A DNA stretch of 64,000 bases from Niastella koreensis GR20-10 (lineage in GTDB: Bacteria > Bacteroidota > Bacteroidia > Chitinophagales > Chitinophagaceae): the NCBI RefSeq assembly GCF_000246855.1, contig NC_016609.1:8382744-8446743 (forward strand), written 5' to 3'. The notes beneath the pieces are model-generated. The model was not told the DNA's origin. It saw only the letters and a program-made list of their open reading frames with translations, and made no database searches. This document shows positions 45,395 to 61,775 of the stretch, piece after piece. Both the position numbers and the translations under genes were made by a program. Within the stretch, counting starts at the first letter, position 1. Each line of letters starts with the position of its first letter.

Positions 45395-46465
45395 TTAAGC
45401 AACAGGATTGATCAATTTCAGAATATAATACACAATAGCTGCAAGAAGGCCGCTCACTGGAATGGTGAGGATCCATGCCCATAACAGGTTAATGGAAACG
45501 CCCCAGCGTACAGCCGATAAACGTTTGGTCATACCCACACCCATAATAGAACCTACGATGGTATGCGTGGTACTCACGGGTACACCCAATCCCTGCGAAA
45601 CGCCGTAGAGGGTAAGCGCACCGGCGGTTTCGGCAGCCACCCCTTCGAGCGGGGTAACCTTAGTGATCTTTGTTCCCATGGTTTTAATAATACGCCAGCC
45701 ACCCATCATGGTACCTGCACCAATACACAAGTAACAGGTGATAGGTATCCATTGGGGCACATGAGCATAGCTAGATTTACCATGGGCATCTACCACTTCC
45801 TGAATATGGGCCCAGTGTGGTACAGGCATTCCATTTTTCACGCACCAGGCGCCAAATACCACCATGGAGGCGGTGATAATACCGATCACTTTTTGCGAAT
45901 CGCTGCCACCGTGGCCTAAACTGAAGGCGGCGGAAGATAATAGCTGCAAACGGCGAAACCATTTATCTGCCTGGTAGGGATTAGCCCTTCGGCATAGGTT
46001 GACTATTATGACCGTTATAATAAATGCTATGATCATGCCTATAAAGGGAGCCAGTACAATGAATAGCATGATATTAAAGATGGTTCCCTGGTTAATAACG
46101 CTGAAGCTGTGAGCGTGCGCTACAGCTGCGCCTGCAAAACCACCAATGAGGGTATGCGATGAACTGGAAGGAATACCAAACCACCAGGTAAGCAGGTTCC
46201 AGAAAATGGCGGCTATAAGGCCGGCCATAATTACATATAAGTTAATGGAATCGGCGTGTACGGTTTTGGCAACGGTGTTGGCCACTTTCAGGTCAAAGAT
46301 CCAATAGGCTATGAAGTTGAACATGGCTGCCCAAACTACTGCCTGAAAAGGAGTGAGTACTTTGGTTGAAACAACTGTGGCTATGGAGTTGGCAGCGTCA
46401 TGAAAACCATTGATCAAATCGAAGGCCAGTCCGAGTATAATAATTACAACTAATAATGTAAACAT
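45395..46465 (-). CDS. pit: Low-affinity inorganic phosphate transporter (Pit family)
   Basis: 356 residues, about ten transmembrane helices. The duplicated Pit signature is visible: LAFDLINGFHDAANSIATVV near the N-terminus and GVSQGLGVPVSTTHTIVGSI near the C-terminus, together with WWFGIPSSSSHTLIGG and HGGSDSQKVIGII. It imports metal-phosphate with protons. Its start lies 36 bp after the DUF47 gene, a frequent Pit partner thought to regulate the transporter. First of several phosphate-related genes in this part of the window. Confidence 0.93.
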   Translation of the reverse strand: MFTLLVVIIILGLAFDLINGFHDAANSIATVVSTKVLTPFQAVVWAAMFNFIAYWIFDLKVANTVAKTVHADSINLYVIMAGLIAAIFWNLLTWWFGIPSSSSHTLIGGFAGAAVAHAHSFSVINQGTIFNIMLFIVLAPFIGMIIAFIITVIIVNLCRRANPYQADKWFRRLQLLSSAAFSLGHGGSDSQKVIGIITASMVVFGAWCVKNGMPVPHWAHIQEVVDAHGKSSYAHVPQWIPITCYLCIGAGTMMGGWRIIKTMGTKITKVTPLEGVAAETAGALTLYGVSQGLGVPVSTTHTIVGSIMGVGMTKRLSAVRWGVSINLLWAWILTIPVSGLLAAIVYYILKLINPVA

Positions 46466-46501: not shown

Positions 46502-47149
46502 TTACGCGTATTTAATAATGATAGATTCAATAACGTTACCGGCATCTTCACATTTATCAGTTACAATTTCCATTACCTGGTAAATTTCCCGCTTTTTGAT
46601 CACCTCTTTGGCGTCGGGTTCTGTTTCAAATAACCTGTCGATGCTTAAATCAAAAATATCGTCGGCCTGATTTTCAATGCTGTTTACTTTAACCAGTGCA
46701 TCAGTTATCTGGCGCATATCACGCATATCGCGTAATTGCAGTACGGCATTTTTTATTTGCTCGCAACCCTGATCTATCAGATCAGCCATTTTTTGAATGC
46801 CCTGGTCGTTGGGATTTACTTTGTAGAAGTTGATTTTTTTAGCTGAGGCGAAAATATAGTCGGCAATGTCATCCAGCGCGCTGGCCAGGTAGTGAATGTC
46901 TTCACGGTCGAAGGGGGTAATAAAATTTCTGCCGAGCTCAGTAAAGATCTTATGGGTATAATCGTCGTTCACATGTTCCAGGTCTTCGATCTGGGAAATC
47001 AAAGCAGCCCTTTTGTCGAAGTCGGGCTCCGTAACAACCTCTTTCATTACCTTACCCATTTTAGCCACAGTGTGGGCAACCTGTTCAAACAAGGAATAGA
47101 ATATCCTATCCTTCGGCATGAAAATCTTCATTATAGAGTTTAAGCCCAT
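46502..47149 (-). CDS. DUF47 (PhoU-like) regulator of phosphate transport
   Basis: 215 residues, all-helical, with two PhoU-like three-helix units. The start MGLNSIMKIFMPKDRIFYSLF matches the conserved N-terminus of the family, and the double ExxxD metal motifs are visible in DIHYLASALDDIADYIF and ENQADDIFDLSIDRLF (EDxxD types). DUF47 proteins nearly always lie before pit, as here. Likely cytoplasmic, binding Pit. The upstream -7 element TATTTTTG (47169-47176) places its transcription start about 15 bases before the ATG. Confidence 0.9.
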   Translation of the reverse strand: MGLNSIMKIFMPKDRIFYSLFEQVAHTVAKMGKVMKEVVTEPDFDKRAALISQIEDLEHVNDDYTHKIFTELGRNFITPFDREDIHYLASALDDIADYIFASAKKINFYKVNPNDQGIQKMADLIDQGCEQIKNAVLQLRDMRDMRQITDALVKVNSIENQADDIFDLSIDRLFETEPDAKEVIKKREIYQVMEIVTDKCEDAGNVIESIIIKYA

Positions 47150-47213: not shown

Positions 47214-47246
47214 TAATAATTACTTAACACAAAGATAATATTTATC
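47214..47246 (+). promoter_or_regulatory. Predicted distal Pho-box array (3 repeats)
   Basis: TAATAATTACT (47214), TAACACAAAGA (47225), TAATATTTATC (47236): three direct repeats at exact 11-bp spacing. The first two share TAATAATTACTTAA with the porin-proximal array. Orientation is toward the porin, not toward DUF47. Confidence 0.55.
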
Positions 47247-47442
47247 CCGGAAGCTGTTCTTGCGTGTTTAACATATTGATTTGCAATTAATAGAAATAGT
47301 CTTAGTCATTGGATGCTAACCAGTTAAACAATTGGAAACCTGTTTAACCTTTAATTTCTTAATAAAATATTATTCCAGCCAGCTAAGAAAAAATGTACGG
47401 CTACCGAGAATAAACAATTTACCGGGTAAAGTGTATGAAGTT

Positions 47443-47486
47443 TAAATCATTCTTAACACTGAGGTAATAATTACTTAATATTGGGC
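47443..47486 (+). promoter_or_regulatory. Predicted proximal Pho-box array of the porin (4 repeats)
   Basis: TAAATCATTCT (47443), TAACACTGAGG (47454), TAATAATTACT (47465), TAATATTGGGC (47476), exact 11-bp spacing, ending 17 bases before the porin ATG. The last repeat also resembles a -7 element (TAATATTG), so the exact promoter geometry is unclear here. Confidence 0.6.
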
Positions 47487-47503
47487 CCGCAAAAAACTGC
47501 TTA

Positions 47504-48829
47504 ATGGGTCCTGAACGTATTCCGGTAGCTGCTTTTTACCGCAAATTCATTGCTATTCTGATCTTTATATCTGTTTCTTCTTTTGTGCATGCCCAGTTTT
47601 TGACCGACATGATTGATACCACCACCAGCATGGGCAAAGGGATTTTACAATTGTACAGGAAGTTTGATCGCGTTTATATTACCGGATACCTGCAAACCCA
47701 GTACCAGGTGGTGCAGCAAAAAGGGGCCCACAGCTTTAGCGGCGGCGATTTTGCCCCCAACGTGGATAACAGGTTTATGCTCCGGCGCGGCCGGCTCCGG
47801 TTCGATTATGCCCACATGAATGCTGATGAACAGGTTTCCGTTTACTTTGTATTTCAGTTTGATGGCACTGAACGCGGGGTTTTCATCCGCGATTTCTGGG
47901 GACGCGTATTTGAAAATAAATGGCAGGTGTTTCAATTAACCACCGGTATGTTTGCCCGGCCATTTGGTTACGAAGTGAACCTGGGTTCTGCCGACCGGGA
48001 ATCGCTGGAGCGGGGACGCATGTCGCAAACATTAATGAAGGTGGAACGTGACCTGGGCGCCATGATTTCCTTTGAACCCCGCCGGCCAGACCATCCGTTG
48101 CGTTATTTAAAAATAGATGCCGGTTTTTTCAACGGGCCGGGTTTGAACGCCACCCAGGATTATGACTCCTATAAAGATTTTATTGCCCGTGCCTCCTGGA
48201 AACCTTACCCGCTTTCCAGCTCACTTTTAATTTCAGGCGGACTTTCCTATTTCAATGGCGGCATGTTCCAGAATACAAAATATACCTACGAAATAAGCAA
48301 AGACGCCGCCGGTAAACAGTTTGTGGTAGATTCTGCAGATGGGAACATTGGTCGTAAAGCACCCCGTAAATATTATGGGGCCGATCTGCAATTAAAGTGG
48401 AAGCATAAGTATGGCGCTACTGAATTGCGGCTTGAATACTGGCGGGGTACCCAAACCGCATCGGCCAGTACCAGCGAAACGCCGGCAGCCCTGTTACAGG
48501 AGCCTTACTATGTTCGCAAGTTTGATGGCGCCTTTGCTTACCTGTTGCAAAACGTTGTAAACAGTAAACATCAGGTGGGTCTTAAATTCGATTGGTACGA
48601 TCCCAATACAGCCGTAAAAGGAAAGGAGATTGGCCAGAACGGAAATAATATAAATGCCACTAATATTAAATACACCACGCTGAGTGTTGGATATAATTAT
48701 AACATCAATGAAAATGTGCGGCTGATGTTGTGGTACGACTTTATTCAGAATGAACACACTTCTTTAGCCGGTTATACGGGCGATGTAAAGGATAATATTT
48801 TTACCACAAGGCTGCAGTTCAGGTTTTAG
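47504..48829 (+). CDS. Phosphate-selective porin O/P-like outer-membrane protein
   Basis: 441 residues with a signal peptide (FIAILIFISVSSFVHAQ). The mature part is strand-rich and ends in FTTRLQFRF, a typical outer-membrane barrel terminus. The RFMLRRGRLRFDYAHMN and FQLTTGMFARPFGYEVN blocks are the conserved features of the OprP/OprO porin family, which forms anion or phosphate channels in Pseudomonas and is widespread in Bacteroidota. Together with the neighbouring pit-DUF47 pair and the upstream 11-bp repeats, a role in phosphate or polyphosphate uptake is likely but inferred. The porin itself has no plug domain, unlike the next gene. Confidence 0.82.
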   Translation: MGPERIPVAAFYRKFIAILIFISVSSFVHAQFLTDMIDTTTSMGKGILQLYRKFDRVYITGYLQTQYQVVQQKGAHSFSGGDFAPNVDNRFMLRRGRLRFDYAHMNADEQVSVYFVFQFDGTERGVFIRDFWGRVFENKWQVFQLTTGMFARPFGYEVNLGSADRESLERGRMSQTLMKVERDLGAMISFEPRRPDHPLRYLKIDAGFFNGPGLNATQDYDSYKDFIARASWKPYPLSSSLLISGGLSYFNGGMFQNTKYTYEISKDAAGKQFVVDSADGNIGRKAPRKYYGADLQLKWKHKYGATELRLEYWRGTQTASASTSETPAALLQEPYYVRKFDGAFAYLLQNVVNSKHQVGLKFDWYDPNTAVKGKEIGQNGNNINATNIKYTTLSVGYNYNINENVRLMLWYDFIQNEHTSLAGYTGDVKDNIFTTRLQFRF

Positions 48830-48846
48830 TTGATTTAATATTATGG

Positions 48847-48890
48847 TAACATTGACCTAACGTTTAGATAATATGCCGTTAACATTACCC
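48847..48890 (+). promoter_or_regulatory. Predicted distal Pho-box array of the TonB receptor (4 repeats)
   Basis: TAACATTGACC (48847), TAACGTTTAGA (48858), TAATATGCCGT (48869), TAACATTACCC (48880), all at 11-bp spacing on the plus strand. Confidence 0.65.
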
Positions 48891-48919
48891 TTGCTTTAAA
48901 GCGTAAATACAAGGGCGGT

Positions 48920-48974
48920 TAATAATTCCTTAACATACCCGTAATATGACGATAACACCTTAAGGATACTTTTG
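48920..48974 (+). promoter_or_regulatory. Predicted proximal Pho-box array and -7 element of the TonB receptor
   Basis: TAATAATTCCT (48920), TAACATACCCG (48931), TAATATGACGA (48942), TAACACCTTAA (48953), exact 11-bp spacing, followed 14 bp after the last repeat start by TACTTTTG (48967-48974), a perfect TAnnTTTG. The array occupies the place of the -33 element, as Pho boxes do in E. coli. Confidence 0.7.
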
Positions 48975-48996
48975 CGCGCAAATAAACCGACCATTT

Positions 48997-51801
48997 GTGA
49001 GCAAAATTTATGTTCTTATAATTGCTTGTTTGCTGACTGCTTTCTGCACAAATGCCCAAACGGGTAAACTGGCTGGTAAAATTCTTAATGAGAAGAATGA
49101 ACCGCTTGTAGGGGTATCTGTAAAAATTACGGGCAGCCAGGGTGGTACCACCACCGATGTAGAAGGCCGCTTTACACTTACTCTCTCAGCCGGAAAAAAA
49201 TACGAGTTAACATTTTCTGCTGTTGGCTATGGTTCCAAAACCATAGATGAGGTTGAGGTAACTCCCGGACAGGTTACCGATCTGAATGTTTCTTTAACGG
49301 CAACCGGTAAAAACCTGAATACAGTAACAGTTACCGCAAACCGTTCTTCAGCGCGTAAGGAAACAACCGCTTCGTTAATTCAGTATCAAAAAAATACCAA
49401 TACAGTAGCTGCAGTAATATCGGCTGAGTCTATCCGCCGCTCACCAGATAGAAATACCGGTGAAGTGTTGAAACGGGTACCTGGTACTTCAATTATAGAT
49501 GGCAAATACCTTGTAGTAAGAGGTTTGAGCGACCGGTACAATTTTGCCATGCTGAATGGTATTCCGTTGAGCAGCACCGAGCCCGATCGCAAAACATTCT
49601 CCTTTGACATCTTTCCTGCTTCACTGATAGATAATATTATTATTAATAAAGCTTTTGTTCCCGAACTGCCTGCAGAATGGGCTGGTGGTTTGGTACAGGT
49701 AAATACCAAAGACGTTCCGGCAGCTGGTTTTCTGAATATAACTGTTGGTACCGGTTTTAATACCCAAACATTAAGTAAAGATTTTTACAACTATCAGGGT
49801 GGTAAATACGACTGGTTAGGCATTGATGATGGCATCCGGGCGCTTCCTGCTGAAATGCCTACCAAATCTAAATTCAACTCCCTGGGTGATGGCGACAAAG
49901 CGCAATTAGGAAAAAGCTTTAGCAATATCTGGACTTCAGATAAAGCCTCTTCTGTTTTTGCAAGATTGAATTCCAAATTTGAGCTCAGTGGTGGTTTTAC
50001 CAAAGTGTTTAAAAATGGTTATAAACTGGGTGCAACCCTTGGCTTAACCTATAACCAAAATGTAAAACGCACGCACATCCAAAACGGTGTGTATACTGTT
50101 GCTAATAATATCCCCAGTCTGAATATTGATTACGATAATGAGAAATACAGCCATGATGTGCTGTGGGGTGGTTTGGCGAATGTTACCCTTCAATTAGGTA
50201 ATAATCATAAGATCTCTGTCAAGAACCTGTTCAACGTGAACTCCACTAATTATGTTACCGAAAGAACCGGTCTTGATTACGCACAGGGTAATGATGGACA
50301 ACCCCTCATAGCAAGGGAATTGGCGTTAAAATCAAACATATTTTATAATACCCAGATCTCAGGCGATCATAACCTGCCTACTATAAAAACCAAACTCCAC
50401 TGGTATGGCAGTTTTAATATTCTTGACCAGTATATTCCTGATCAACGCCGTATTCAATACAACCTTGAATCTACTCCAACGGGTAATCGATATATGTTGC
50501 TGGGTGTTGCACAAACTTCTCAGTTATCTGGCAGCCGCTATTTCGGCTACTTAAGCGATTATATTTATACAGCAGGTGGCGATGTAACCAAGTCATTCAA
50601 TTTATTTGGACTGAGCCAGTCAGTTAAAGCTGGTTACCTGTTCCAGGTAAAAGACCGGTTATTTGATTCAAGACCATTTACCATTTATCTGCCAAATGAT
50701 AATGCAGCATTACGTGCATTACCCGCCGATAAGATCTATGCACCGGAGAACTTTGGTAATGGCTTCGATAATAAATTTGCCATCAGCGAGTTGAGCAGTA
50801 ATAGATACCGCTATATCGCGAATTCTATTTTAAATGCAGGATTTATCCAGTTCGATAACCAGTTCACCGATAAACTGAGAGCCACCTGGGGTGTACGGGT
50901 AGAAGATTATGATCAGTTGATAGGAAGTGTAAAGCAAAGTGACCCCCGTCATTTGCATACCGAAGTGAGAGACTTTTTGCCAGGTGTAAACATTACTTAT
51001 AAATTGGGAAGCTCAGCCAACCTGCGTTTATCAGGATCGCAAACAGTGGTACGTCCGGAGTTCCGTGAATTGAGCGATTTTCAATTCTATGATTTTGATA
51101 TGAACGCTACGTTAACCGGTAACAAATACCTGGAGCGTACTAAAATAACCAATGCCGATTTCCGGTATGAGTTGTATCCAAAAGCGGGGGAAGTATTTTC
51201 AATTGGTGTATTTTATAAATATTTCCAAAAGCCAATTGAGTTTTCTTTCAACCCTGCAGGACTTGGCAGCCAGTTCAATTATGTAAATGCTGATAAGGCA
51301 ACAGGCTATGGTGCAGAACTGGAATACCGGAAGAAATTGGATTTTGTACAGGCATTACACAACTTCACATTCCAGGGTAATTTCTCTTACATCTATAACC
51401 GGGTAAAATCAGAGAGTTTAACATTAGACAGGCCAATGCAGGGACAAAGCCCTTATGTTATAAATGCTGCTTTACAATATGACGTTGAAAAACTGGGATT
51501 GTATACTACGTTGTTATATAACCAGATTGGCGATAGAATTGCTTTTGTAGGCAATAAAGTTCTGGGAATACCGGAAATCTGGGAAAACACCCGTCCTTTA
51601 TTGGATTTGCAGGTTGCCAAAAAAGTAATAAAAAGCAAAGGCGAGGTTAAACTGAACGTTTCAGACATCTTTAACAAGGCTGCTAATTATTATTACGACT
51701 TTAACGAAAACAAGAAGTATGATAAATCAAGCGATAAGCTGGTTATCAAACGCAAATACGGCACTACTTTCAACATTTCATTTTCTTACAACATAAAATA
51801 A
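48997..51801 (+). CDS. TonB-dependent receptor with N-terminal carboxypeptidase-like domain
   Basis: 934 residues from GTG 48997. Signal peptide (YVLIIACLLTAFCTNAQ), then a carboxypeptidase-regulatory-like domain (about 22-110: GKLAGKILNEKNEPLVGVSV and GYGSKTI), a plug domain (about 125-240: RSPDRNTGEVLKRVPGTSII, YLVVRGLSDRYNFAMLNGIP), and a 22-strand barrel ending in TTFNISFSYNIK. It lacks the SusC-type LYVIDG motif and no susD gene follows, so it is not a classical glycan-uptake pair. It sits between a porin and a beta-helix lipoprotein and is preceded by two predicted Pho-box arrays. Uptake of a phosphorus-containing ligand is inferred, not shown. Confidence 0.85.
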   Translation: MSKIYVLIIACLLTAFCTNAQTGKLAGKILNEKNEPLVGVSVKITGSQGGTTTDVEGRFTLTLSAGKKYELTFSAVGYGSKTIDEVEVTPGQVTDLNVSLTATGKNLNTVTVTANRSSARKETTASLIQYQKNTNTVAAVISAESIRRSPDRNTGEVLKRVPGTSIIDGKYLVVRGLSDRYNFAMLNGIPLSSTEPDRKTFSFDIFPASLIDNIIINKAFVPELPAEWAGGLVQVNTKDVPAAGFLNITVGTGFNTQTLSKDFYNYQGGKYDWLGIDDGIRALPAEMPTKSKFNSLGDGDKAQLGKSFSNIWTSDKASSVFARLNSKFELSGGFTKVFKNGYKLGATLGLTYNQNVKRTHIQNGVYTVANNIPSLNIDYDNEKYSHDVLWGGLANVTLQLGNNHKISVKNLFNVNSTNYVTERTGLDYAQGNDGQPLIARELALKSNIFYNTQISGDHNLPTIKTKLHWYGSFNILDQYIPDQRRIQYNLESTPTGNRYMLLGVAQTSQLSGSRYFGYLSDYIYTAGGDVTKSFNLFGLSQSVKAGYLFQVKDRLFDSRPFTIYLPNDNAALRALPADKIYAPENFGNGFDNKFAISELSSNRYRYIANSILNAGFIQFDNQFTDKLRATWGVRVEDYDQLIGSVKQSDPRHLHTEVRDFLPGVNITYKLGSSANLRLSGSQTVVRPEFRELSDFQFYDFDMNATLTGNKYLERTKITNADFRYELYPKAGEVFSIGVFYKYFQKPIEFSFNPAGLGSQFNYVNADKATGYGAELEYRKKLDFVQALHNFTFQGNFSYIYNRVKSESLTLDRPMQGQSPYVINAALQYDVEKLGLYTTLLYNQIGDRIAFVGNKVLGIPEIWENTRPLLDLQVAKKVIKSKGEVKLNVSDIFNKAANYYYDFNENKKYDKSSDKLVIKRKYGTTFNISFSYNIK

Positions 51802-51823
51802 ACAACGTAAATAAATAAGGTTT

Positions 51824-53233
51824 ATGAAAAAGCTATTTTATATAATTGCTTTAGCTGGTTTGGCTTTAAACGGTTGCCGTAAAATTGAAATTGACGGCGA
51901 TGGTAATGGTGGCAGCAACAATAATGGTACTGATACTACTGTAGAGAATACCATTCTTGTAGGTAGAATCACAGCCAACCGCACCTTGTCTGCAAAGTAT
52001 ACTTACAAATTACGCGGGCTGGTATATGTTACCAATGGTGCTATTTTAACCATTGAACCAGGAACCAAAATTGTTGGTGAAAATGGTCAGAACGGTGGAT
52101 TGATCATCACCCGCAGTGCAAAGATCATTGCTGAAGGTACTGTTGATAAACCAATTGTTTTCACTTCAGAAGCTTCTAATCCTAAACGCGGTGACTGGGC
52201 TGGGGTGGTATTGTTAGGTAATGCGCCTACCAATGCCTCATTCAATGGTCAGGCAGGTCTCGGTGAAATAGAAGGTGGTGTTAACAACAGTGATGGATTA
52301 GGACTGTATGGTACACCAACAACCCAATTGCAAAACCCTGCTGATAACAGCGGTATTTTAAAGTATGTAAGAATTGAATATGCCGGTTATGCATTCCTGC
52401 CTGATAAAGAGATCAACGGTTTAACTTTTGGTGGTGTAGGAAGCAACACAGTTGTTGATAATGTTCAGGTATCATATGCCAACGACGATTCATTTGAGTG
52501 GTTTGGCGGTACTGTTAAATGTACGCACCTCATCAGCTTCCGTACGCTGGATGATGATTTCGATACTGATAACGGTTTTTCCGGTAAAATACAGTTCGGT
52601 ATTTCATTAAGAGATTCTTCAGTGGCCGATATTTCAAACAGTGAAGCATTTGAAAGCGATAATGATGCAAACGGTAGCTCATTAGTACCACAAACCAGCG
52701 CTGTTTTCTCAAACATGACCATAGTAGGACCTAAAATGCTCACTACTACCAGTGTAAGCAACTATTTTGTTTGGGGCGCTCAAATCAGAAGAAATTCGAG
52801 CCTGTCTATTTTCAACTCTGTTATCATGGGCTATCCTAATGGCTTGTATATCGATGCCACAAAAGGAACTCCAACAGATTTGAATATCCCAGGTTCTCTG
52901 TTTGTTCAGAACACCATTATTGCAGGTTGCCCTACACCTATCCTGTATGGGCCCAGCACAACAACTGCAACCGGAGCAACTACTGCTTCTATCACTACCT
53001 GGTTTAATACGGCCAGCTATGGTAACAGCATTCTTACCAATAACACAGATGTAGCATTAACGGCGCCTTTCAATTACACAGCGCCTGATTTTAACCCAAC
53101 TGCAGCTTCTCCTGCAGCTTCTGGGGCAAGCTTTACAAATTCTAAATTGACGTCTGGCTTTACCAGCGTTGGTTACAAAGGCGCCTGCGCTGTAGGTGAT
53201 ACCTGGTGGAAAACATGGACAAGATTTATGTAG
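51824..53233 (+). CDS. Surface-type lipoprotein with right-handed beta-helix repeats
   Basis: 469 residues, lipoprotein signal (IIALAGLALNGC; Cys18). A Gly/Asn-rich linker (DGDGNGGSNNNG) is followed by repeating strand-turn units such as LTIEPGTKIVGENGQNG, LIITRSAKIIAEGTVDKP and NTVVDNVQVSYANDDSFEW, which read as a parallel beta-helix. The gene lies 22 bp after the TonB receptor and is probably co-transcribed. It is likely the surface-exposed partner that captures or processes the receptor's ligand, as SusD does for SusC, but of an unrelated fold. No catalytic motif stands out. A terminator follows. Confidence 0.75.
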   Translation: MKKLFYIIALAGLALNGCRKIEIDGDGNGGSNNNGTDTTVENTILVGRITANRTLSAKYTYKLRGLVYVTNGAILTIEPGTKIVGENGQNGGLIITRSAKIIAEGTVDKPIVFTSEASNPKRGDWAGVVLLGNAPTNASFNGQAGLGEIEGGVNNSDGLGLYGTPTTQLQNPADNSGILKYVRIEYAGYAFLPDKEINGLTFGGVGSNTVVDNVQVSYANDDSFEWFGGTVKCTHLISFRTLDDDFDTDNGFSGKIQFGISLRDSSVADISNSEAFESDNDANGSSLVPQTSAVFSNMTIVGPKMLTTTSVSNYFVWGAQIRRNSSLSIFNSVIMGYPNGLYIDATKGTPTDLNIPGSLFVQNTIIAGCPTPILYGPSTTTATGATTASITTWFNTASYGNSILTNNTDVALTAPFNYTAPDFNPTAASPAASGASFTNSKLTSGFTSVGYKGACAVGDTWWKTWTRFM

Positions 53234-53249
53234 TAATATTTACTGATTT

Positions 53250-53290
53250 TAAAATCCGCTTCTCTTTTAAAGAGGAGCGGATTTTTTATT
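53250..53290 (+). terminator. Terminator after the receptor operon, overlapping a promoter
   Basis: AAATCCGCT-t-CTCTT pairs with AGAG-g-AGCGGATTT around TTAA, followed by a T run. The T run is at the same time part of the -7 region of the next gene. Confidence 0.8.
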
Positions 53291-53294
53291 TTTG
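53287..53294 (+). promoter_or_regulatory. -7 element of the next lipoprotein gene
   Basis: TATTTTTG (53287-53294) matches TAnnTTTG and starts in the T run of the preceding terminator; ATG follows at 53315. Confidence 0.5.
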
Positions 53295-53314
53295 CCCCAC
53301 AATTAACTAATAGT

Positions 53315-53863
53315 ATGAGAGCACTTGTTATTTGTTTTTTGATATTAATTACTGCTGCCTGTAATGAGCCTGTAAAAACAAACAATAATAATCCGAAGGA
53401 AAAATTCGATAAGATAGAAAGTATTACAGGATCAGATAACTGGCAGCTGATTGATGGCGTGGATACTTCCTATTTATTCTTCAGCAGAATTGGGAATGAG
53501 GTAGATGTGTATAGATATACTATCAGCAAAGGAGATTCTGTAAATACCCAAATGAATAATATAGTACATCGAAACGATTCGGTGATCTGGAATTGGAACA
53601 ATGAAAAGTTGTTATTGACTGGTGCCGATGGCAATACCATTAACTGGCAGGCTATGAATACGGGTAAGGATGCGTGCAAAATGGTTAAAACAGACAGTGT
53701 ACATATTTCATTTGTATTACCAAACGGGCATACAGCCGATTTAAAAAAGACCTTACCATTGAGTGTGTTCCTGGTTCGGCAGAAATATGATTATATCCAT
53801 GGTACATCTTATACCGATAGCGCAACCATACTTACCCGGCACCCAAAGAAAAAGGCGAAATAG
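53315..53863 (+). CDS. Predicted lipoprotein, unknown
   Basis: 182 residues. The signal ends at ILITAAC (Cys16). The mature part is polar and strand-rich (WQLIDGVDTSYLFFSRIG, SVIWNWNNEKLLLTGADG) with a C-terminal basic tail (HPKKKAK). No recognised domain. It has its own promoter directly after the receptor operon terminator, and converges with the next gene. Confidence 0.65.
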   Translation: MRALVICFLILITAACNEPVKTNNNNPKEKFDKIESITGSDNWQLIDGVDTSYLFFSRIGNEVDVYRYTISKGDSVNTQMNNIVHRNDSVIWNWNNEKLLLTGADGNTINWQAMNTGKDACKMVKTDSVHISFVLPNGHTADLKKTLPLSVFLVRQKYDYIHGTSYTDSATILTRHPKKKAK

Positions 53864-53881
53864 CCCTCAAAAATGGCTTCG

Positions 53882-55081
53882 TTATTTTTTTTGTGGAGTA
53901 TATGCATACGCAACCTCGTAGGGAACCTTCTTTAATTCAGGCAGCGTTTCCCCTATCATCAGGTCTTCTTTTTGCGGGGTAGGTTCACAAATGGAGTATT
54001 TGTTTCCATTGTAAACAATTGGCTTGCCAACCGGCCATTTAAATTGCACCCCTATTGTTACATGTTTGGGATATGTTACCACGATCATGGGCAGATCATA
54101 GATCTCTTTTACAAGACAATAGAACAAAGCAACCCGGTCGTCACAGTCACTTTGATCGTACAACAGGGTTTGCTCGGGCGACAGGCGTTTTTCGCCGCCA
54201 AAAACTTCAGTATCCGGTTCAAACATAAACGCATACCGCGTAAAACGCATCAGGTAATCAACCCCGCTTTTTACACTCAATCCTTTCAGGCTTTTCTTCA
54301 ACAGCGGTATCAGGGAATAATAGGTTTCTTTACTGAGCGGAATATTCAGGTACAATGCATAATCTACCACCGGATAGTTGACAAAAAGCGTTTGGATCTG
54401 GTTATTCAGTTTTACTTTAAAATGGTAGTCACTTGCATTGTAATTGAAATACAGGTCTTTTACGGTGTAATCGGTTGGCCTGAATTCGGGCAGGTGAGTG
54501 ATTTTGTAGGAAAAAACATTGTTCGCGCCGGCAACAGGCAGATCGATTAACGTGAATACGTGCTTTTGAAAGTCGATATTATTGCCATAATCATGATAGT
54601 TCAAACAAACATATTGTTTGCCATTTACCATGCGGTATGGGATATTATAGATGTTCTCTGCGCAATAAATGTAAAACAGGATATAATTGCCCGAAACAGC
54701 CAGCCGGGCATCGTAGCCTAATCTGCTTAGCAGGTACCATTTGTACACAGTATACCGGTGGTAATCGCCCGATTTGGGACTTATCTGCTGGGCTGTTTTC
54801 CTTACTAGCTGGTAAAAAAGCCAGTCATCGGGTTTGAACCTGTCTTTATAGGAAAGCAATGCATTCACCACCGGATCATAAGCTTTGGGGTTGAGGTGTT
54901 GGTAAAAGGCGGTGATGGCCGCTTCGTCCGATAAGGCGGGGGCGTCGGGAATAATCGATCTGTCAAAATCAAAGCTGACCGGTTCTCCGCAAAAATCAAA
55001 TTGAATCGTATTGGCCGCGGAAGCGGTTGGGCGGATAGCAAAGGTTACTACAAGGAATAATATGGTTAAACACCTGCTCAC
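53882..55081 (-). CDS. Exported transglutaminase-like protein
   Basis: 399 residues from GTG 55081. Signal peptide (TILFLVVTFAIRPTASA). The C-terminal region has DQSDCDDRVALFYCLVKEIY followed by VVTYPKHVTIGVQF, which fits the Cys...His layout of the transglutaminase-like (cysteine-peptidase) fold, with Asp not clearly placed. Middle parts are strand-rich (YKITHLPEFRPTDYTVKDLY). Likely periplasmic. The upstream TAACTTTC is a weak -7 element. A role in cross-linking or proteolysis cannot be decided. It is convergent with the preceding lipoprotein. Confidence 0.65.
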   Translation of the reverse strand: MSRCLTILFLVVTFAIRPTASAANTIQFDFCGEPVSFDFDRSIIPDAPALSDEAAITAFYQHLNPKAYDPVVNALLSYKDRFKPDDWLFYQLVRKTAQQISPKSGDYHRYTVYKWYLLSRLGYDARLAVSGNYILFYIYCAENIYNIPYRMVNGKQYVCLNYHDYGNNIDFQKHVFTLIDLPVAGANNVFSYKITHLPEFRPTDYTVKDLYFNYNASDYHFKVKLNNQIQTLFVNYPVVDYALYLNIPLSKETYYSLIPLLKKSLKGLSVKSGVDYLMRFTRYAFMFEPDTEVFGGEKRLSPEQTLLYDQSDCDDRVALFYCLVKEIYDLPMIVVTYPKHVTIGVQFKWPVGKPIVYNGNKYSICEPTPQKEDLMIGETLPELKKVPYEVAYAYTPQKK

Positions 55082-55133
55082 TGTTAATTTCCACTATTAA
55101 TATACGAAAGTTAACAATAAGGTAATATTAATT

Positions 55134-55310
55134 TTGAAGGCAGAAGGCAGAAAACAACCTCAAGCTTTAAGCCGCAAGCAATACACTTCTGCGCGGTGGG
55201 CAGCCATACATCCCAGGCGGTGTAAGCTTAGTTATTTGTCTGAAATGTCGCGAGCCTACTCACTACTCACTACTCACTACTCACTACTGACCACTCACCA
55301 CTCACAATTT
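55134..55310. repeat. Low-complexity repeats, including CTCACTACTCACTA units
   Basis: 55134-55180 carries AGGCAGAAGGCAGAA and AAGCTTTAAGCCGCAAGC words. 55258-55306 is a tandem of CACTACTCACTACT, the same unit as the right arm of 16471-16612. Here no facing reverse-complement arm is evident. Confidence 0.65.
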
Positions 55311-55390
55311 GGTAACACTGCTGTAACAACGGGCTAATAGTGCACCGGTACCTTGCAGTGATTCCATTTTTCAGTAATGTTCATTTCATT

Positions 55391-55475
55391 TAACAGATGC
55401 TGTTATTAACGCCGTTCTCCCAGCTCTCCCGGGAGGGCGGCGTTCACGTGAAGAACAGCTGTTAGTTAAATGCGG
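55391..55475. repeat. Cluster of strong hairpins
   Basis: TTAACAG-atg-CTGTTA (55391-55406), AACGCCG-tt-CTCCC with GGGAG-gg-CGGCGTT (55409-55445), TTCACGTGAA (55444-55453) and AACAGCTGTT (55456-55465). Compact, GC-rich in AT-rich surroundings. Not a normal terminator because there is no T run. Confidence 0.6.
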
Positions 55476-55616
55476 AATTGATGTTTACGAATGAAGTGCT
55501 ATGTTTACTAGATAAAATTAAATACTGGTGGGTAGTAATTGGAAAATTGTAAGAAAAAAGTAAAATTCTATAAATAAATGTGAATTTGTACTTTCCTGGC
55601 GGTATCTTTAACAATC

Positions 55617-55758
55617 TTATCCTCGCTGAAAGCGTTTTTCTGGTCTCCAGCGTTAATAACTTCTAATTATACTATTAAGATTCTCTATAAAGTGAGAGTT
55701 TTATTTTCTCTCATGTGACTGACGCCGTTCGATTTCTATCGTGACGGCTCTTTTTTTT
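55617..55758 (+). ncRNA. Candidate small RNA with intrinsic terminator
   Basis: The 3' end is a good terminator: GCCGT and CGAT (55724-55733) pair with ATCG and ACGGC (55738-55748), then nine T. Upstream hairpins CGCTG/CAGCG (55624-55652) and TGAGAG/CTCTCA (55693-55713) give a structured body. A weak -7 (TATCTTTA, 55603-55610) precedes it; the TTTG at 55585-55588 is closer than the usual 20 bp. No ORF. A 6S-like or regulatory RNA is possible; the family was not recognised. Confidence 0.35.
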
Positions 55759-55760
55759 TA
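55724..55760 (+). terminator. Intrinsic terminator without an obvious gene
   Basis: Stem 55724-55748 (GCCGTtCGAT ... ATCGtgACGGC) followed by a nine-T run at 55751-55759. Confidence 0.75.
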
Positions 55761-56139
55761 TCTTGGCTGCATAAAATGCGGATTACTCTTTACAGTTATT
55801 TATTACAGACATCATTAACCAGCTTTAGAACACGAATTCGTAACTATTCACCATAAGTTTTGAACTTTCACGTATAAGTGCAGAACTTTTCGGGAAATGT
55901 TCCCTACATGCCGCATGAAGTTGGCTACTTATACGCCAAAGTAGCTAACATTAGGGCAAAGTATGACCACATTACTCCAAAGAGTGATTAATCGCTCCAA
56001 AGTTGACTCGAAATGAGGCATTTTAAGCTACTTACGACACTAAGTTGGCAACTTATGGTCAAAAGTTTGAAAGAGGCTACCTTACTGCCAATTTTACACT
56101 GGAATTTTACCTTTTTTGACAGGACATTTTTCATATAAT

Positions 56140-56177
56140 AACAGGTGCCACGTTTTGTTACAAACGTAGCACCTGTT
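56140..56177 (-). terminator. Hairpin after the glycosyltransferase gene
   Basis: AACAGGTG-c-CACGTTT pairs with AAACGT-a-GCACCTGTT around a short loop. It lies 25 bp past the minus-strand gene stop; the T tract is interrupted (TTATTATATG). Confidence 0.65.
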
Positions 56178-56200
56178 ACAACGGAAGAACGAAGTTTATA

Positions 56201-57235
56201 TTAATTGAAAATAAGATCGGGATAGGGAATCTCGAGCTGCCATTTAAGATCGGTGCAGCGGTACATAAGTATATTAATGATTGCTTCAGTTGAATACTGG
56301 TAGTGTACGCTGGGTGTTTTGGGATCGTTCACCCAGTTGTTGAAGGTACCGGTAAAATCATCATCGATCTTGTCCAGGGTGGTGATGCCGATCTTCTTCA
56401 GGGCGGCAGCATTGCATTGTTGTTCGTATTGACCCTGGATAGGAATAGCAATCATTTTTTTATTCAGGTACAGAGCTTCTGCCGGAGTTTCAAAACCGGC
56501 CCCGCATACGATACCATGACAGCTGATAAGGCTGCGGTTGAAATCTTTTGAATCAACCGGGCGGAAGTTCAGATGATCGACCGTGTATGGTTTTAACGCC
56601 TGGCGGCTGAACACCTCGAACCGGTGGTCTTTAAAAAGCTTCAGCAATTCTATTAACTGCTTATCACAATAGGAGGGAAGGTAAACGGTTATATGACCTT
56701 TATTGGTGGCTTCGGCCTGTAAGATCTCTTCTTTGATAACAGGTGAAAAAATGAAGTCATCATAACTCTCAAAATGCAGACCAATATAGTTGGAAGCCTT
56801 GGCGTAGTTCTGCAGAATCCATTCACCGGCTTTGCTGGGTTTATCGGGCCGGGGAGTTTTGTCGGATACAAAGCTGGCCTGGTGACCAAAGTTCACCGAA
56901 GGCACTTTTTTACGCGCGCAGGCTAAAGCGGTAATACACTCAAAATCGTTAATTACCAGGTCGTAATTTTCAACGGGGAGGTCGCGCACTTCTTTCATAA
57001 CCCGGTAGGGTGAAATGCTTTTAACAATCTTCCAGTAATCGAGGCTGCCATCGCAGGTGTAAAACAGGCTCAATCCTTTGCTGCGGTATTTAATAGGGGC
57101 ATTCAGGGAAAGCGTGCTGTTGGCGCCGCTTAAAAAAATGTCAACCGTACCAAATTTCTGTAAATAGGGCAACAATTCCATAGCACGACTGATGTGTCCG
57201 TTGCCTGTAGCCTGTATTGCGTAGAATATCTTCAT
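56201..57235 (-). CDS. Glycosyltransferase (GT28/MGT-like), predicted glycolipid synthase
   Basis: 344 residues. The N-terminal IFYAIQATGNGHISRAMEL block is the GNGHxxR acceptor/membrane loop of GT-B enzymes of the MurG/monogalactosyldiacylglycerol-synthase type. The C-terminal nucleotide-sugar site is CHGIVCGAGFETPAEALYL (family GGxGTxxEAL) and IPIQGQYEQQCNAAALKKIG. No signal peptide; probably membrane-associated. It follows a PlcP-like phospholipase gene by 25 bp. In phosphate-starved bacteria such a pair turns phospholipid into diacylglycerol and then glycolipid; this role is inferred from context and the Pho-box array upstream. Confidence 0.75.
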   Translation of the reverse strand: MKIFYAIQATGNGHISRAMELLPYLQKFGTVDIFLSGANSTLSLNAPIKYRSKGLSLFYTCDGSLDYWKIVKSISPYRVMKEVRDLPVENYDLVINDFECITALACARKKVPSVNFGHQASFVSDKTPRPDKPSKAGEWILQNYAKASNYIGLHFESYDDFIFSPVIKEEILQAEATNKGHITVYLPSYCDKQLIELLKLFKDHRFEVFSRQALKPYTVDHLNFRPVDSKDFNRSLISCHGIVCGAGFETPAEALYLNKKMIAIPIQGQYEQQCNAAALKKIGITTLDKIDDDFTGTFNNWVNDPKTPSVHYQYSTEAIINILMYRCTDLKWQLEIPYPDLIFN

Positions 57236-57260
57236 AATGTTGAAATGTCTTCCTCAGAAT

Positions 57261-58091
57261 TTAAATAGCCAGTGAGTTTATGTAAAAACTGATCTCATCA
57301 GTTAACACGTTTACTTTGGCTGGTATATCAATAGCAGTTTGCGGGAAATCTTTTTCGTTGTATTCAAAAATGGTCCATTCGTTTTGCTTGTACTCCAGGG
57401 CGGTTAAATGTTCCACCCAGTCGCCCGAATTCAGGTATGTAACTTTTCCTTTTTCGTTTTCGATCACTCTTTTTTGCGGCTGGTGAATATGGCCACAGAT
57501 CACATACTCATATTTTTTCTCGATGGCCAGTTCGGCGGCAATTTGTTCAAAGGCGTCTATCTTGGCCATCTTGTTTACGCTGGCCATTACATTTTTTGAA
57601 ATGGATAATTTCTCCCGGCCAAAAATTTTCAACACAGAATTTACCAGCCGGTTAAACAGGATCAATGCGCCATAACCGCTGCTGCCCAATTTTGCCAATA
57701 CCCTGGCGCCGCCTTTTGTGGTATTGTCAAACACGTCACCGTGAAAGATCCAGGTCATTTTATTATCGATCTCCAGTACCAATTTGTCGGTCAGGGTAAA
57801 ATGGCTGAGCTGAAAATCGGCGTACCGGCGGAGTAACTCATCATGGTTACCGGTAATGTAAAAAACGCGCGTACCCTTGGTGATCAGGTTCAACACCTCT
57901 TTTATAACCGCCATATGGGAGGCGGGGAAATAACGTTTGGAGAATTGCCATCCGTCAATGATGTCCCCGTTAAGGATAAGAATGTTAGGCAGGATACTTT
58001 TCAGGTAAGCAACCAGTTCTTTTGCACGACATCCGTATGTACCTAAGTGTACATCAGATATAACTACCACATCTACTGCTCGTTTTTCCAT
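57261..58091 (-). CDS. Metallophosphoesterase, PlcP-like phospholipase C
   Basis: 276 residues from ATG 58091. Calcineurin-like two-metal site: DVHLG (Asp13, His15), GDIIDGW (Asp43), GNHDE (Asn82, His83), HGDVFD and CGHIHQP. Features that separate PlcP from LpxH-type hydrolases are visible: DVHLGTYGCRAKELVAYLK, GWQFSKRYFP and the late LNSGDWVEHLTALEY. PlcP of Sinorhizobium cleaves membrane phospholipid to diacylglycerol under phosphate limitation. Here it is the first gene of an operon with a glycosyltransferase and has five predicted Pho-box repeats before it. Function by family resemblance from memory, so the subfamily call needs a phylogeny. Confidence 0.78.
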   Translation of the reverse strand: MEKRAVDVVVISDVHLGTYGCRAKELVAYLKSILPNILILNGDIIDGWQFSKRYFPASHMAVIKEVLNLITKGTRVFYITGNHDELLRRYADFQLSHFTLTDKLVLEIDNKMTWIFHGDVFDNTTKGGARVLAKLGSSGYGALILFNRLVNSVLKIFGREKLSISKNVMASVNKMAKIDAFEQIAAELAIEKKYEYVICGHIHQPQKRVIENEKGKVTYLNSGDWVEHLTALEYKQNEWTIFEYNEKDFPQTAIDIPAKVNVLTDEISFYINSLAI

Positions 58092-58117
58092 TGAGTTTGG
58101 GTTTATCAAAATTCCCT

Positions 58118-58183
58118 CATATATATGACCTCATTGTTACAGTAATATTAAGATGGCGTTAGTATTGTGTAAACTAATTGTTA
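58118..58183 (-). promoter_or_regulatory. Predicted Pho-box array (5 repeats) and -7 element of the plcP-like operon
   Basis: On the minus strand, from 58183 downward: TAACAATTAGT, TTACACAATAC (58172), TAACGCCATCT (58161), TAATATTACTG (58150), TAACAATGAGG (58139), each 11 bp apart. TATATATG (58125-58118) begins exactly 14 bp after the start of the last repeat, the same geometry as at the TonB receptor. It leaves a leader of about 20 bases. Confidence 0.68.
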
Positions 58184-58342
58184 AGCAGCCGTTTGTATAA
58201 AACGGTGCCGGTTGTGGGTAAACGTAATCATTTGTTCATACTGGAAAAACAATACGATAATATGGCAGGTGTACCTTAGGGTCCGTTTTATTGCTGTGTG
58301 TTATACATAAATAACAATCGTAGCAGTTTCTTAATGTTGACC

Positions 58343-58375
58343 GGCGGAGCTTTTTTAAGTTTCGCCCTTTTTTTT
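58343..58375 (+). terminator. Plus-strand terminator with no gene before it
   Basis: GGCGGAGCTT (58343-58352) pairs with AAGTTTCGCC (58357-58366), two G-T pairs, loop TTTT, then C and eight T. A short RNA divergent from the plcP-like operon may end here. Confidence 0.75.
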
Positions 58376-59941: not shown

Positions 59942-60991
59942 TCAATCCCTCTTGGATTCCAACGTAAACCCAATTGTCGTTCCAACATCCGGTGTGCTGC
60001 GCACATGAATACTTTGTCCGTGCGCTTCAATAATATGTTTGCAAATGGCGAGGCCCAAACCGGTGCCGCCTTTATCGCGGCTGCGGGCGGTATCGGTGCG
60101 GTAAAAGCGTTCAAAAATACGGGGCAGGTGCTCTTCCTCGATGCCAATACCATCGTCGCTTATTTCAATCAGTACGTGCTGATCGTCGGTATCGTAAATA
60201 CTGGCTACTATATTACCGTTATGTTTGCCATACTTGGTGGCATTTTCAACCAGGTTAATAAGCACCTGTTTTATTTTTTCTTTATCGGCAAAAACGGTGA
60301 TGGGCGCTTCGCAGCCTTTTTTAATTACGGTGCGGATATTTTTAGCCTGTGTTTTTATAGAAAGGGAGTCGTAGATCTCTTTAATAAGTTCCTGAATGGG
60401 AAAGTTCTGTTTGGCCAGTAATTGTTCGCCGCGTTCCAGTTTTGAGATCTCATCCAGGTCGTTCATCAGGTTCACCAGGCGATCTACGTTTTTGGAAGTA
60501 TTTTCCAGGAATCTTTTGGCTACGGCTTCTTCTTCCATGGCGCCGTCAAGCAAAAGATCTACATAACCCTGTATTGCGAAGATGGGCGTTTTAAATTCAT
60601 GGGCAAGGTTTTGAAGAAACTCCTTGCGGTAGGCTTCATTTTGGCGCAACAGCTCAATTTCCTTAATGCGGTGTTCGCCCCAGGCCTCCACATCGGCACG
60701 CACTTCGTCGATGCTTTTTTGGGGAAGAATGTATTTGAAATACATCTCCTCTTTTTTGGTAGCCTTGGTTTGGTAAATGAGTTTGTAGATCAGTTTTATT
60801 TTGCGGTAAATAAAACGTTCCATGGTAACCAGTATCAGCCAGTAACTGCCTGCAAAAACCACTACCAGCGAAGCCAATCCTATTTGCCAGTTGCCGGTAA
60901 GAATAAGAATGCCAACGGCAATTGGAAAAGCTAAGATAGCTGCAGTAAAAGCGGCCAGCTGCCGCGGTGAAAAATTTTTGGCTGAAGGCAT
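59942..60991 (-). CDS. Sensor histidine kinase, PhoR-like
   Basis: 349 residues. Two close transmembrane helices (about 13-31 and 36-56) leave almost no periplasmic loop. Then come a linker (about 60-120), a dimerisation/phosphoacceptor domain with LAHEFKTPIFAIQGYVDLLL (His131), and an ATPase domain with N-box LVENATKYGK, G1 DDGIGI, F-box FERFYR and G2 GGTGLGLAICKHI. The small periplasmic exposure matches PhoR-type phosphate sensing kinases, but no PAS domain is evident. It follows its response regulator gene. Assignment to phosphate sensing rests on the phosphate genes and predicted Pho boxes in the same window. Confidence 0.85.
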   Translation of the reverse strand: MPSAKNFSPRQLAAFTAAILAFPIAVGILILTGNWQIGLASLVVVFAGSYWLILVTMERFIYRKIKLIYKLIYQTKATKKEEMYFKYILPQKSIDEVRADVEAWGEHRIKEIELLRQNEAYRKEFLQNLAHEFKTPIFAIQGYVDLLLDGAMEEEAVAKRFLENTSKNVDRLVNLMNDLDEISKLERGEQLLAKQNFPIQELIKEIYDSLSIKTQAKNIRTVIKKGCEAPITVFADKEKIKQVLINLVENATKYGKHNGNIVASIYDTDDQHVLIEISDDGIGIEEEHLPRIFERFYRTDTARSRDKGGTGLGLAICKHIIEAHGQSIHVRSTPDVGTTIGFTLESKRD

Positions 60992-61000
60992 AGAAGACCA

Positions 61001-61106
61001 ATGTGATAATTAGCTAATTAGCTAATGTGATAATGAAAACTGAATACTGTGAAATTAGCAATTTAGCCAATTATCACAGTATCGTATTATCACATTATCA
61101 CATTGT
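61001..61106. repeat. Intergenic inverted repeat of AATGTGATAATTAGC units between kinase and regulator
   Basis: The left arm 61001-61034 (atgtgataattagctaattagctaatgtg, abridged) and the right arm 61052-61106 (tattatcacattatcacatt) are reverse complements. The right arm runs into the stop codon of the response regulator. Same unit as 763-905. Confidence 0.75.
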
Positions 61107-61775
61107 GAATTTGTAACCAACTCCTTTAACGGTGGTAATGCAATCGATGCCGAGCTTTTGGCGGATTTTTCGAATATGAACGTCGATGGTGCGGTCGCCA
61201 ACGATCACATCGTTACCCCAGATCTGGTTAAGGATCTCGTTGCGCAGAAATACCCGGCCGGGTTTTGACGCCAGGAGGTACAGCAGTTCAAATTCTTTTT
61301 TCGCCAATACCACCGCTTTGCTGTCTACCTTGGCTTCAAATTTAACCGGATCAATTTCGAGGTTATCGATCCTGATTACTTTTTCTTCCGGTTCTTTATT
61401 GATGCGGCGAAAGATAGCGTGTATACGGCTTACGAGAATTTTAGGGCTTACCGGTTTGCTGATATAATCGTCTGCACCGGTTTCCAGGCCTTTAACGTGA
61501 GAGCTTTCATCGCTGAGGGCGGTTAGGAATACGATAACAGTATCCTTAAATGCCGGTTGGGCACGTAAAATTTCACAAACTTCCACCCCGTTTTTGCGGG
61601 GCATCATAATATCCAGGATAATCAGGTCGGGCTGACTTAGCTTGGCTTTTTGAATGGCATCATCCCCATTATTAGCCGTCACTATCTCATAACCCTCTTT
61701 GGTAAGATTATACCGGATAATTTCAACTATATCAGGCTCGTCATCTGCAATAAGGATCTTGCCTTTAGCATTCAT
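61098..61775 (-). CDS. Response regulator, OmpR/PhoB family
   Basis: 225 residues from ATG 61775. Receiver domain: acidic pair Asp11-Asp12 (IADDEPD), phosphoacceptor Asp55 (LIILDIMMP), Thr/Lys switch residues in FLTALSDE and YISKPVSPK. The C-terminal winged helix-turn-helix has KKEFELLYLLASKPGRVFLR, WGNDVIVGDRTIDVHIRKIR and TTVKGVGYKF, of the OmpR/PhoB type that binds 11-bp-spaced direct repeats. It precedes the PhoR-like kinase by 106 bp. A candidate for the protein binding the 11-bp arrays. A TAGGTTTG -7 element lies at 61791-61798. Confidence 0.9.
   Translation of the reverse strand: MNAKGKILIADDEPDIVEIIRYNLTKEGYEIVTANNGDDAIQKAKLSQPDLIILDIMMPRKNGVEVCEILRAQPAFKDTVIVFLTALSDESSHVKGLETGADDYISKPVSPKILVSRIHAIFRRINKEPEEKVIRIDNLEIDPVKFEAKVDSKAVVLAKKEFELLYLLASKPGRVFLRNEILNQIWGNDVIVGDRTIDVHIRKIRQKLGIDCITTVKGVGYKFTM

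Follow-up and report, generated by a model that had tools for sequence, protein, structure and literature searches.

In Escherichia coli the PHO box adjoins the –10 box and replaces the upstream promoter element, and in Bacillus subtilis the PhoP motif is TTAACA, which is resembled by the TAAY units described here. PHO boxes consist of direct repeats of 11 nt whose consensus differs from species to species, according to excerpts of a review that also mentions work on the Pho regulon of Bacteroides fragilis (PMC4415409). We analysed a 64,000-nt stretch of Niastella koreensis GR20-10, a member of the Chitinophagaceae (contig NC_016609.1, positions 8,382,744 to 8,446,743; "the window" below), in which arrays of TAAY units at 11-bp spacing precede a TonB-dependent receptor gene, a plcP-like gene and further sites. 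These arrays are like the PHO boxes of E. coli PhoB, B. subtilis and Streptomyces in being head-to-tail 11-nt direct repeats before phosphate genes, and unlike them in sequence: the E. coli motif CTGTCAT is not matched, and the S. coelicolor motif is GTTCACC (same review excerpts, PMC4415409). Unlike those PHO boxes, they usually have four units and are locked to a TAnnTTTG –7 box.

The closest genetic parallel comes from Flavobacterium johnsoniae. The parts of that study available to us report a phoBR cluster with a TonB receptor carrying the same three Pfam domains, with a value of 8.02 in phosphate depletion (presumably a log2 change), and a PlcP that responds to phosphate depletion (PMC8115612). 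The genes are of similar kinds to those of the window (a phoBR cluster that includes a TonB receptor and a lipoprotein, as well as PlcP and a glycosyltransferase), a likeness of kind; the main text nowhere uses the terms "pho box", "promoter" or "binding site" (PMC8115612). The window likewise resembles marine-bacterial plcP clusters, in which a glycosyltransferase gene lies downstream, predicted Pho boxes lie upstream and plcP is phosphate-regulated; the passages of that study available to us give no Bacteroidota Pho box sequence (PMC4796936). Among the matches listed in the open-access literature, we found no described Pho box or operator for Chitinophagaceae or Bacteroidota; the original prediction from this DNA was likewise aware of none for Chitinophagaceae.

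That prediction took five arrays as the signature of a Pho regulon, a view that conservation, a model scan of the genome and the pstS-like operons of relatives support. The promoter-type arrays (D, E and probably F and G; Table 1) are very probably Pho boxes of the PhoB kind, for which the PhoB-like regulator and PhoR-like kinase encoded in the window are the most likely binder and partner.

All five arrays (A to E) are present at the claimed positions with 11-bp spacing. The proposed unit TTAAY holds as TAAY, which is exact in 19 of 21 units when array C is counted as five, with T preceding only 11 of the 21; the two inexact units are the first of B (TAAA) and the second of E (TTAC). Two extents had to be revised: array C starts at 48836, not 48847, and comprises five exact units, and array E gains a sixth unit, TCAT at 58128, which is the one in the –7 register. 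A distance of 14 bp between the start of the last unit and the –7 box, as proposed for two arrays, holds for D (TACTTTTG) and, with TCAT counted, for E (GAATTTTG). The last unit therefore occupies the place of the –33 element. The rule fails for arrays A and B, which have no –7 box in register. Two further promoter-type arrays, F (55302) and G (58225), are additional to the five first noted. The core TAATAATTNCTTAAY, noted earlier as common to three plus-strand arrays, lies in A, B and D and is explained by the first unit of the consensus of relatives given below.

Table 1 Features of the window (window positions; R1 and matrix are the two scoring models described in the text)
Feature	Position	Strand	Remarks
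PHO4/Pit-type phosphate transporter gene	45395..46465	–	PF01384
DUF47 (PhoU_div) gene	46502..47149	–	PF01865
Array A	47214..47246	+	3 TAAY units; divergent region between DUF47-pit genes and porin gene; R1 17.5 bits, E 0.045
Array B	47443..47486	+	4 units, unit 1 TAAA; before porin gene; R1 19.2 bits, E 0.013; matrix 3.6
Outer-membrane porin gene	47504..48829	+	Porin_O_P type through relationship only: 43% identical to L316 protein (PF07396 above cut-off); no Pfam match of its own above cut-off
Array C	48836..48890	+	Five units, all exactly TAAY; accompanies D on its upstream side, before TonB-dependent receptor gene
Array D	48920..48963	+	Predicted Pho box; 4 exact TAAY units, 11-bp spacing; R1 34.2 bits, E 2.3e-7; matrix 46.5
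–7 box of D, TACTTTTG	48967..48974	+	First base 14 bp past first base of last unit of D
TonB-dependent receptor gene	48997..51801	+	PF07715, PF13715, PF14905
Probable lipoprotein gene	51824..53233	+	PF28492 (precomputed annotation)
Array F	55302..55345	+	TCAC, TAAC, TAAC, TAAT; R1 24.9 bits, E 2.0e-4; matrix 29.1
–7-like box of F, TACCTTGC	55349..55356	+	TAnnTT type, in register
Candidate small RNA after array F	55357..55450	+	GC-rich hairpin 55408-55444; conserved in L197
Element T	55682..55762	+	Hairpin, invariant CTCATGTGACT, terminator hairpin, T run; conserved
Glycosyltransferase gene, downstream of plcP	56201..57235	–	PF13528
PlcP-like metallophosphoesterase gene	57261..58109	–	PF12850; first ATG 58091
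–7 box of plcP, GAATTTTG	58107..58114	–	In register with array E unit TCAT (58128)
Array E, before plcP	58118..58183	–	TAAC, TTAC, TAAC, TAAT, TAAC, TCAT; R1 28.2 bits, E 1.8e-5; matrix 37.5 at 58161
Array G, divergent from E	58225..58268	+	R1 17.5 bits, E 0.045; matrix 30.1
–7-like box of G, TACCTTAG	58272..58279	+	TAnnTT type, in register
Candidate small RNA after array G	58280..58374	+	Terminator hairpin 58343-58366, then T run
Histidine kinase gene, PhoR-like	59942..60991	–	Below curated PhoR cut-offs
PhoB-like response regulator gene, proposed array binder	61098..61775	–	Best match to Bacteroidota PhoB model

In line with what the original prediction had required, arrays are conserved before homologous genes. 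Among 147 genomes of the family, 92 have a match to the receptor (E 1e-100) and 112 a match to plcP (E 1e-40); 30 receptor loci and 30 plcP loci, own genome included, were compared, each of the 60 receiving a score. Upstream of 28/30 receptor and 25/30 plcP homologues, TAAY units spaced by 11 bp agree in at least 14 of 16 letters; the two receptor loci below this threshold come from one genus (G061, G143), and the remaining five plcP loci reach 13 letters. These counts include three loci whose flanks reach contig ends (L110, L115 and L177), none in training, with arrays of 16, 16 and 15 letters and TTTG in place. An initial count without them gave 26/30 and 24/30 for period 11, every other period from 7 to 15 scoring 0–2 of 30, and dinucleotide shuffles reaching 14 letters numbered about 0.4 (receptor) and 0.15 (plcP) of 30. 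When arrays were placed by TAAY alone, the distance from the start of the last unit to the start of TTTG was exactly 18 bases in 23 of 26 receptor loci and 21 of 24 plcP loci. A second array upstream of the receptor array, parallel to array C, is also present in L197, L198, L199 and L201.

Two models were derived from relatives. A score matrix was applied to the window and to fetched loci, with a lowest score of 16.4 among 29 plcP loci, most of which had trained it. The second, R1, is a sequence-only model of 55 positions built from 51 arrays with the own genome excluded, after requiring at least 16 of 20 letters including TTTG (7 of 60 loci were dropped, besides the two own-genome loci). As TTTG was part of this selection, the register is partly built into R1, and the unbiased test is the TAAY-only placement above. 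The majority consensus of the 51 arrays is TAACAATTnCT TAATnnTnnnn TAACATTnnGG TAATATnnnnn nnnnAnnTTTG. In a scan of the own genome in which 150 of 2401 first-look candidates were scored, array D was the top scored match (E 2.3e-7), and six of the ten best scored matches (D, E, F, B, G and A) fell in the window, which makes up 0.7% of the 9.03-Mb single-contig genome, a result against the random scatter that the original prediction had named as refuting it.

The expectation that a scan of relatives would also find the array before pst genes was borne out at 9 of 30 pstS-like loci, none in training, where every R1 match shares the strand of pstS and is located upstream of either pstS or the preceding gene. 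Five of these matches extend through the –7 box (26.1–33.4 bits) with TTTG in register, and all five loci encode a PF12849 binding protein. The preceding gene matches Porin_O_P above the cut-off in L316, L336 and L325, below it in L341 and not at all in L342; a permease gene follows in all three loci tested (L341, L336 and L342). Only L316 among the five best loci passes the curated PstS cut-off, and a search of the own genome for pstS at E 1e-15 yielded no match. In all, at least two head-to-tail 11-nt direct repeats, a fixed distance to a –7 box that replaces the upstream promoter element (arrays A and B apart) and a position before phosphate-acquisition genes, pst included (receptor, plcP and the nine pstS-like loci), are features that the arrays have in common with the PHO box.

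Elsewhere in the own genome, a promoter-type site with a matrix score of 23.8 precedes genes for SusC, SusD, an HD-domain phosphonate oxygenase (TIGR03276, above cut-off), a PhnX-like hydrolase (below cut-off), DUF5690 and an FAD oxidoreductase (TIGR03364, above cut-off), and others of this type precede PAP2-containing gene sets (matrix 27.2 and 19.8). A promoter-type array at L344:5092 (minus strand; matrix 29.1, R1 E 0.12) precedes genes for DUF218, an unknown protein and a TonB receptor. Within L343:5677-18017, SusCD-phosphonate genes, an XRE-cupin regulator and PAP2-PMT genes lie together with two arrays between them, likely a second Pho cluster. An array at polyphosphate-kinase genes (L001, L203) carries the core of A and B and scores below 8 with the matrix, and it is not claimed as a site.

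Arrays A and B lie outside this promoter geometry. Array A, which is not among the top matrix sites of the window, points away from the DUF47 gene and lies upstream of its likely –7 box TATTTTTG. Among 30 DUF47 loci of relatives no consistently oriented array was found: by our reading, a weak array within 250 bp points away from DUF47 in about 11 and towards it in 7, three of the loci having both. A and B may accordingly be repressing or auxiliary sites, from which the regulator would act on the pit genes or assist the porin gene and would not recruit polymerase in the geometry of D and E. The missing –7 register, the direction of A and the weak arrays near DUF47 in relatives speak for this possibility, which we hold tentatively and with some doubt, given that the porin genes of L074 and L076 are preceded by stronger arrays (25.8 and 19.7 bits), which would allow direct activation of the porin gene.

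As for the protein that would bind the promoter-type arrays, the regulator encoded at 61098 is the best (221.5 bits) of 15 regulators matching the Bacteroidota PhoB model over its full length, the next scoring 181.6 bits. Its DNA-binding domain matches the solved structure of E. coli PhoB (1gxp, E 2e-18), ranked after an OmpR-family regulator (8hml, 8hig), and its putative recognition helix aligns as gdRTiDVHIRkiR with edRTvDVHIRrlR in 1gxp, a kind of segment common in the OmpR family. In L074 and L076, two of 13 loci compared, the receptor and lipoprotein genes have a kinase-regulator pair (62–65% identical) as their neighbours, and part of the kinase is present before the contig end in L075.

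Several observations weigh against the Pho-box reading of the arrays or narrow its reach. The regulator falls under the curated PhoB cut-offs (TIGR02154, 234.4 versus 296.2 bits; NF053854, 221.8 versus 270 bits), and the full pair lies near the receptor in just the two loci named, being absent from L070 and L073 with at least 8 kb sequenced past the lipoprotein gene. Arrays A and B are not of the promoter type, 21 of the 30 pstS-like loci have no R1 match, and R1 is weak at the phosphonate site (E 1.6) and the PAP2 sites (E 0.8 and 0.6), where the matrix is high. Some matrix sites have no evident link to phosphorus (L020, 23.5; L082, 19.9; L218, 16.6; L010 and L216, 15.7; L009, 15.1), and a 23.1-bit R1 array without a –7 box in register (L205:7997; G000:C1:6977956-6977996, minus strand) has its first unit 187 nt before a DnaB-helicase-like gene, named by eye. 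The R1 scan of the genome covered 150 scored candidates of 2401. Plain counting is unspecific, runs of four TAAY units in which no more than one letter deviates occurring 40 times in the genome versus 33 for the reversed pattern, and the reversed control reaches 14 letters in 10/30 receptor and 9/30 plcP loci of relatives; this control is imperfect and inflated, because TAAT is identical when reversed. Outside the family, 7 of 25 plcP loci of other Bacteroidota families have an R1 match on the correct strand in the roughly 300 bp before the gene (8 of 9 matches are placed so, 8.7–18.7 bits); the array or a close form of it extends past the family, diverged or lost there. In the available parts of the published work, F. 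johnsoniae oprP is not significantly changed (PMC8115612), and deletion of a PhoP/PhoR-like system in Riemerella raised pstS 8-fold (PMC5399024). Period-11 TAAT arrays at G000:C1:7251817 and 8848236 each have another OmpR-type regulator less than 2 kb away and are possibly operators of those neighbouring systems.

Observations of this kind would fit arrays bound by a different OmpR/PhoB-type regulator that answers a non-phosphate signal such as envelope stress: there are 15 full-length matches to the PhoB model, at least two regulators besides that of the window have TAAY arrays no more than 2 kb away, and the 61098 regulator stays under the curated cut-offs. We regard this as rather improbable, since array matches precede plcP, pstS-like, phosphonate and PAP2 genes and two further loci show the PhoB-like pair in linkage with the cluster.

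Within the window, period 11 yields 8 runs of four units that deviate in no more than one letter, periods 9, 10, 12, 13 and 14 yield none, and 8 of the 40 genome-wide simple matches fall here. Period 8 likewise yields 8 four-unit TAAY matches in the window, perhaps from a local tandem repeat. Another simple pattern gave 131 matches versus 137 in the control, signal equal to background; because such counts fail to separate signal, conservation and the trained model were used instead. The best matrix scores in the reversed and complemented window were 1.8 and 1.3. An origin of the arrays in accidental periodicity of AT-rich DNA or in decayed tandem repeats, as the scarcely elevated simple counts and plain tandem repeats elsewhere (for example TAACAGGGACA) might suggest, is scarcely credible against a period, register and position conserved across many genera and matrix scores of 46.5 (D), 37.5 (E), 30.1 (G) and 29.1 (F) versus a best of 8.1 among 20 Markov-simulated 64-kb sequences.

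On the Pho-box reading, the phosphorylated 61098-61775 regulator, with the 59942-60991 kinase as its partner, would bind head to tail along successive units of 11 bp, each starting with TAAY. The final one would stand in for the –33 element, 14 bp ahead of the TAnnTTTG –7 box, and the bound regulator would hold the sigma factor on promoters that have no good –33 box. Low phosphate would then induce the TonB receptor and lipoprotein genes as well as PlcP and the glycosyltransferase, the latter pair for remodelling of membrane lipids, and, elsewhere in the genome, the SusCD-phosphonate operon and the PAP2 lipid-phosphatase operons. Of this picture, the build of the arrays, their register, their conservation and the kinds of genes they precede are seen directly, and the binder, its phosphorylation, the sense of the response and the extent of the operons are inferred.

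Arrays F and G may serve a different kind of transcript. Each is followed, at no more than about 100 nt, by conserved non-coding DNA that contains a hairpin. The stretch downstream of F is 0.66–0.86 identical to that of the same-genus genome L197 in 50-column windows, and array F is found there too (16.3 bits). Its fold of –31.3 kcal/mol has a z score of –4.1 against mononucleotide shuffles (–2.5 in L197), the hairpin being present in both genomes; in the window it contains no listed open reading frame of at least 90 amino acids and no good T run. Downstream of G, identity to L197 is 0.96–1.00 (windows starting at 58275-58325) versus 0.72–0.94 in the glycosyltransferase gene, and the array before it was found in the two same-genus genomes only, with 22.3 bits in the relative. 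Strong matches to the G element occur in 6 of 147 genomes, five of them training sources and the new one G085 (85.4 bits), and element T matches at 43.5–99.4 bits in 7 of 147, six of them training sources and the new one G035 (43.5 bits); at E 0.01 the numbers rise to 32 of 147 for T and 18 of 147 for G, mostly near the threshold. For elements F, T and G (window 42000-64000) there is no Rfam match at the gathering score. T-type hairpins are preceded by similarly shaped arrays in G085 (R1 11.9 bits) and G029 (no R1 match listed), and the T-type stretch of G085 (L199) has a fold z score of 0.0, no better than shuffles. G085 carries two copies of element T.

Judged from sequence, F and G could be Pho promoters of candidate small regulatory RNAs, so that phosphate starvation would switch on at least two small RNAs near plcP. 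We put this at slightly short of an even chance, the few family copies beyond the training sequences and the T-type stretch that folds like shuffles having weakened it.

Among the window genes, plcP owes its name to its family and its neighbouring genes, and the best named relatives of the receptor are Chitinophagaceae or Chitinophagales records. The plcP leader would be very short, with 15 nt from the –7 box to the first ATG (58091-58107).

For Bacteroidota that live in soil or with plants, lack of phosphate is a central theme, and a 55-position model combined with a strict promoter register would make such regulons predictable from sequence. The arrays suggest how an OmpR-type activator could meet the –33/–7 promoter of this phylum, and the two candidate phosphate-regulated small RNAs are directly testable.

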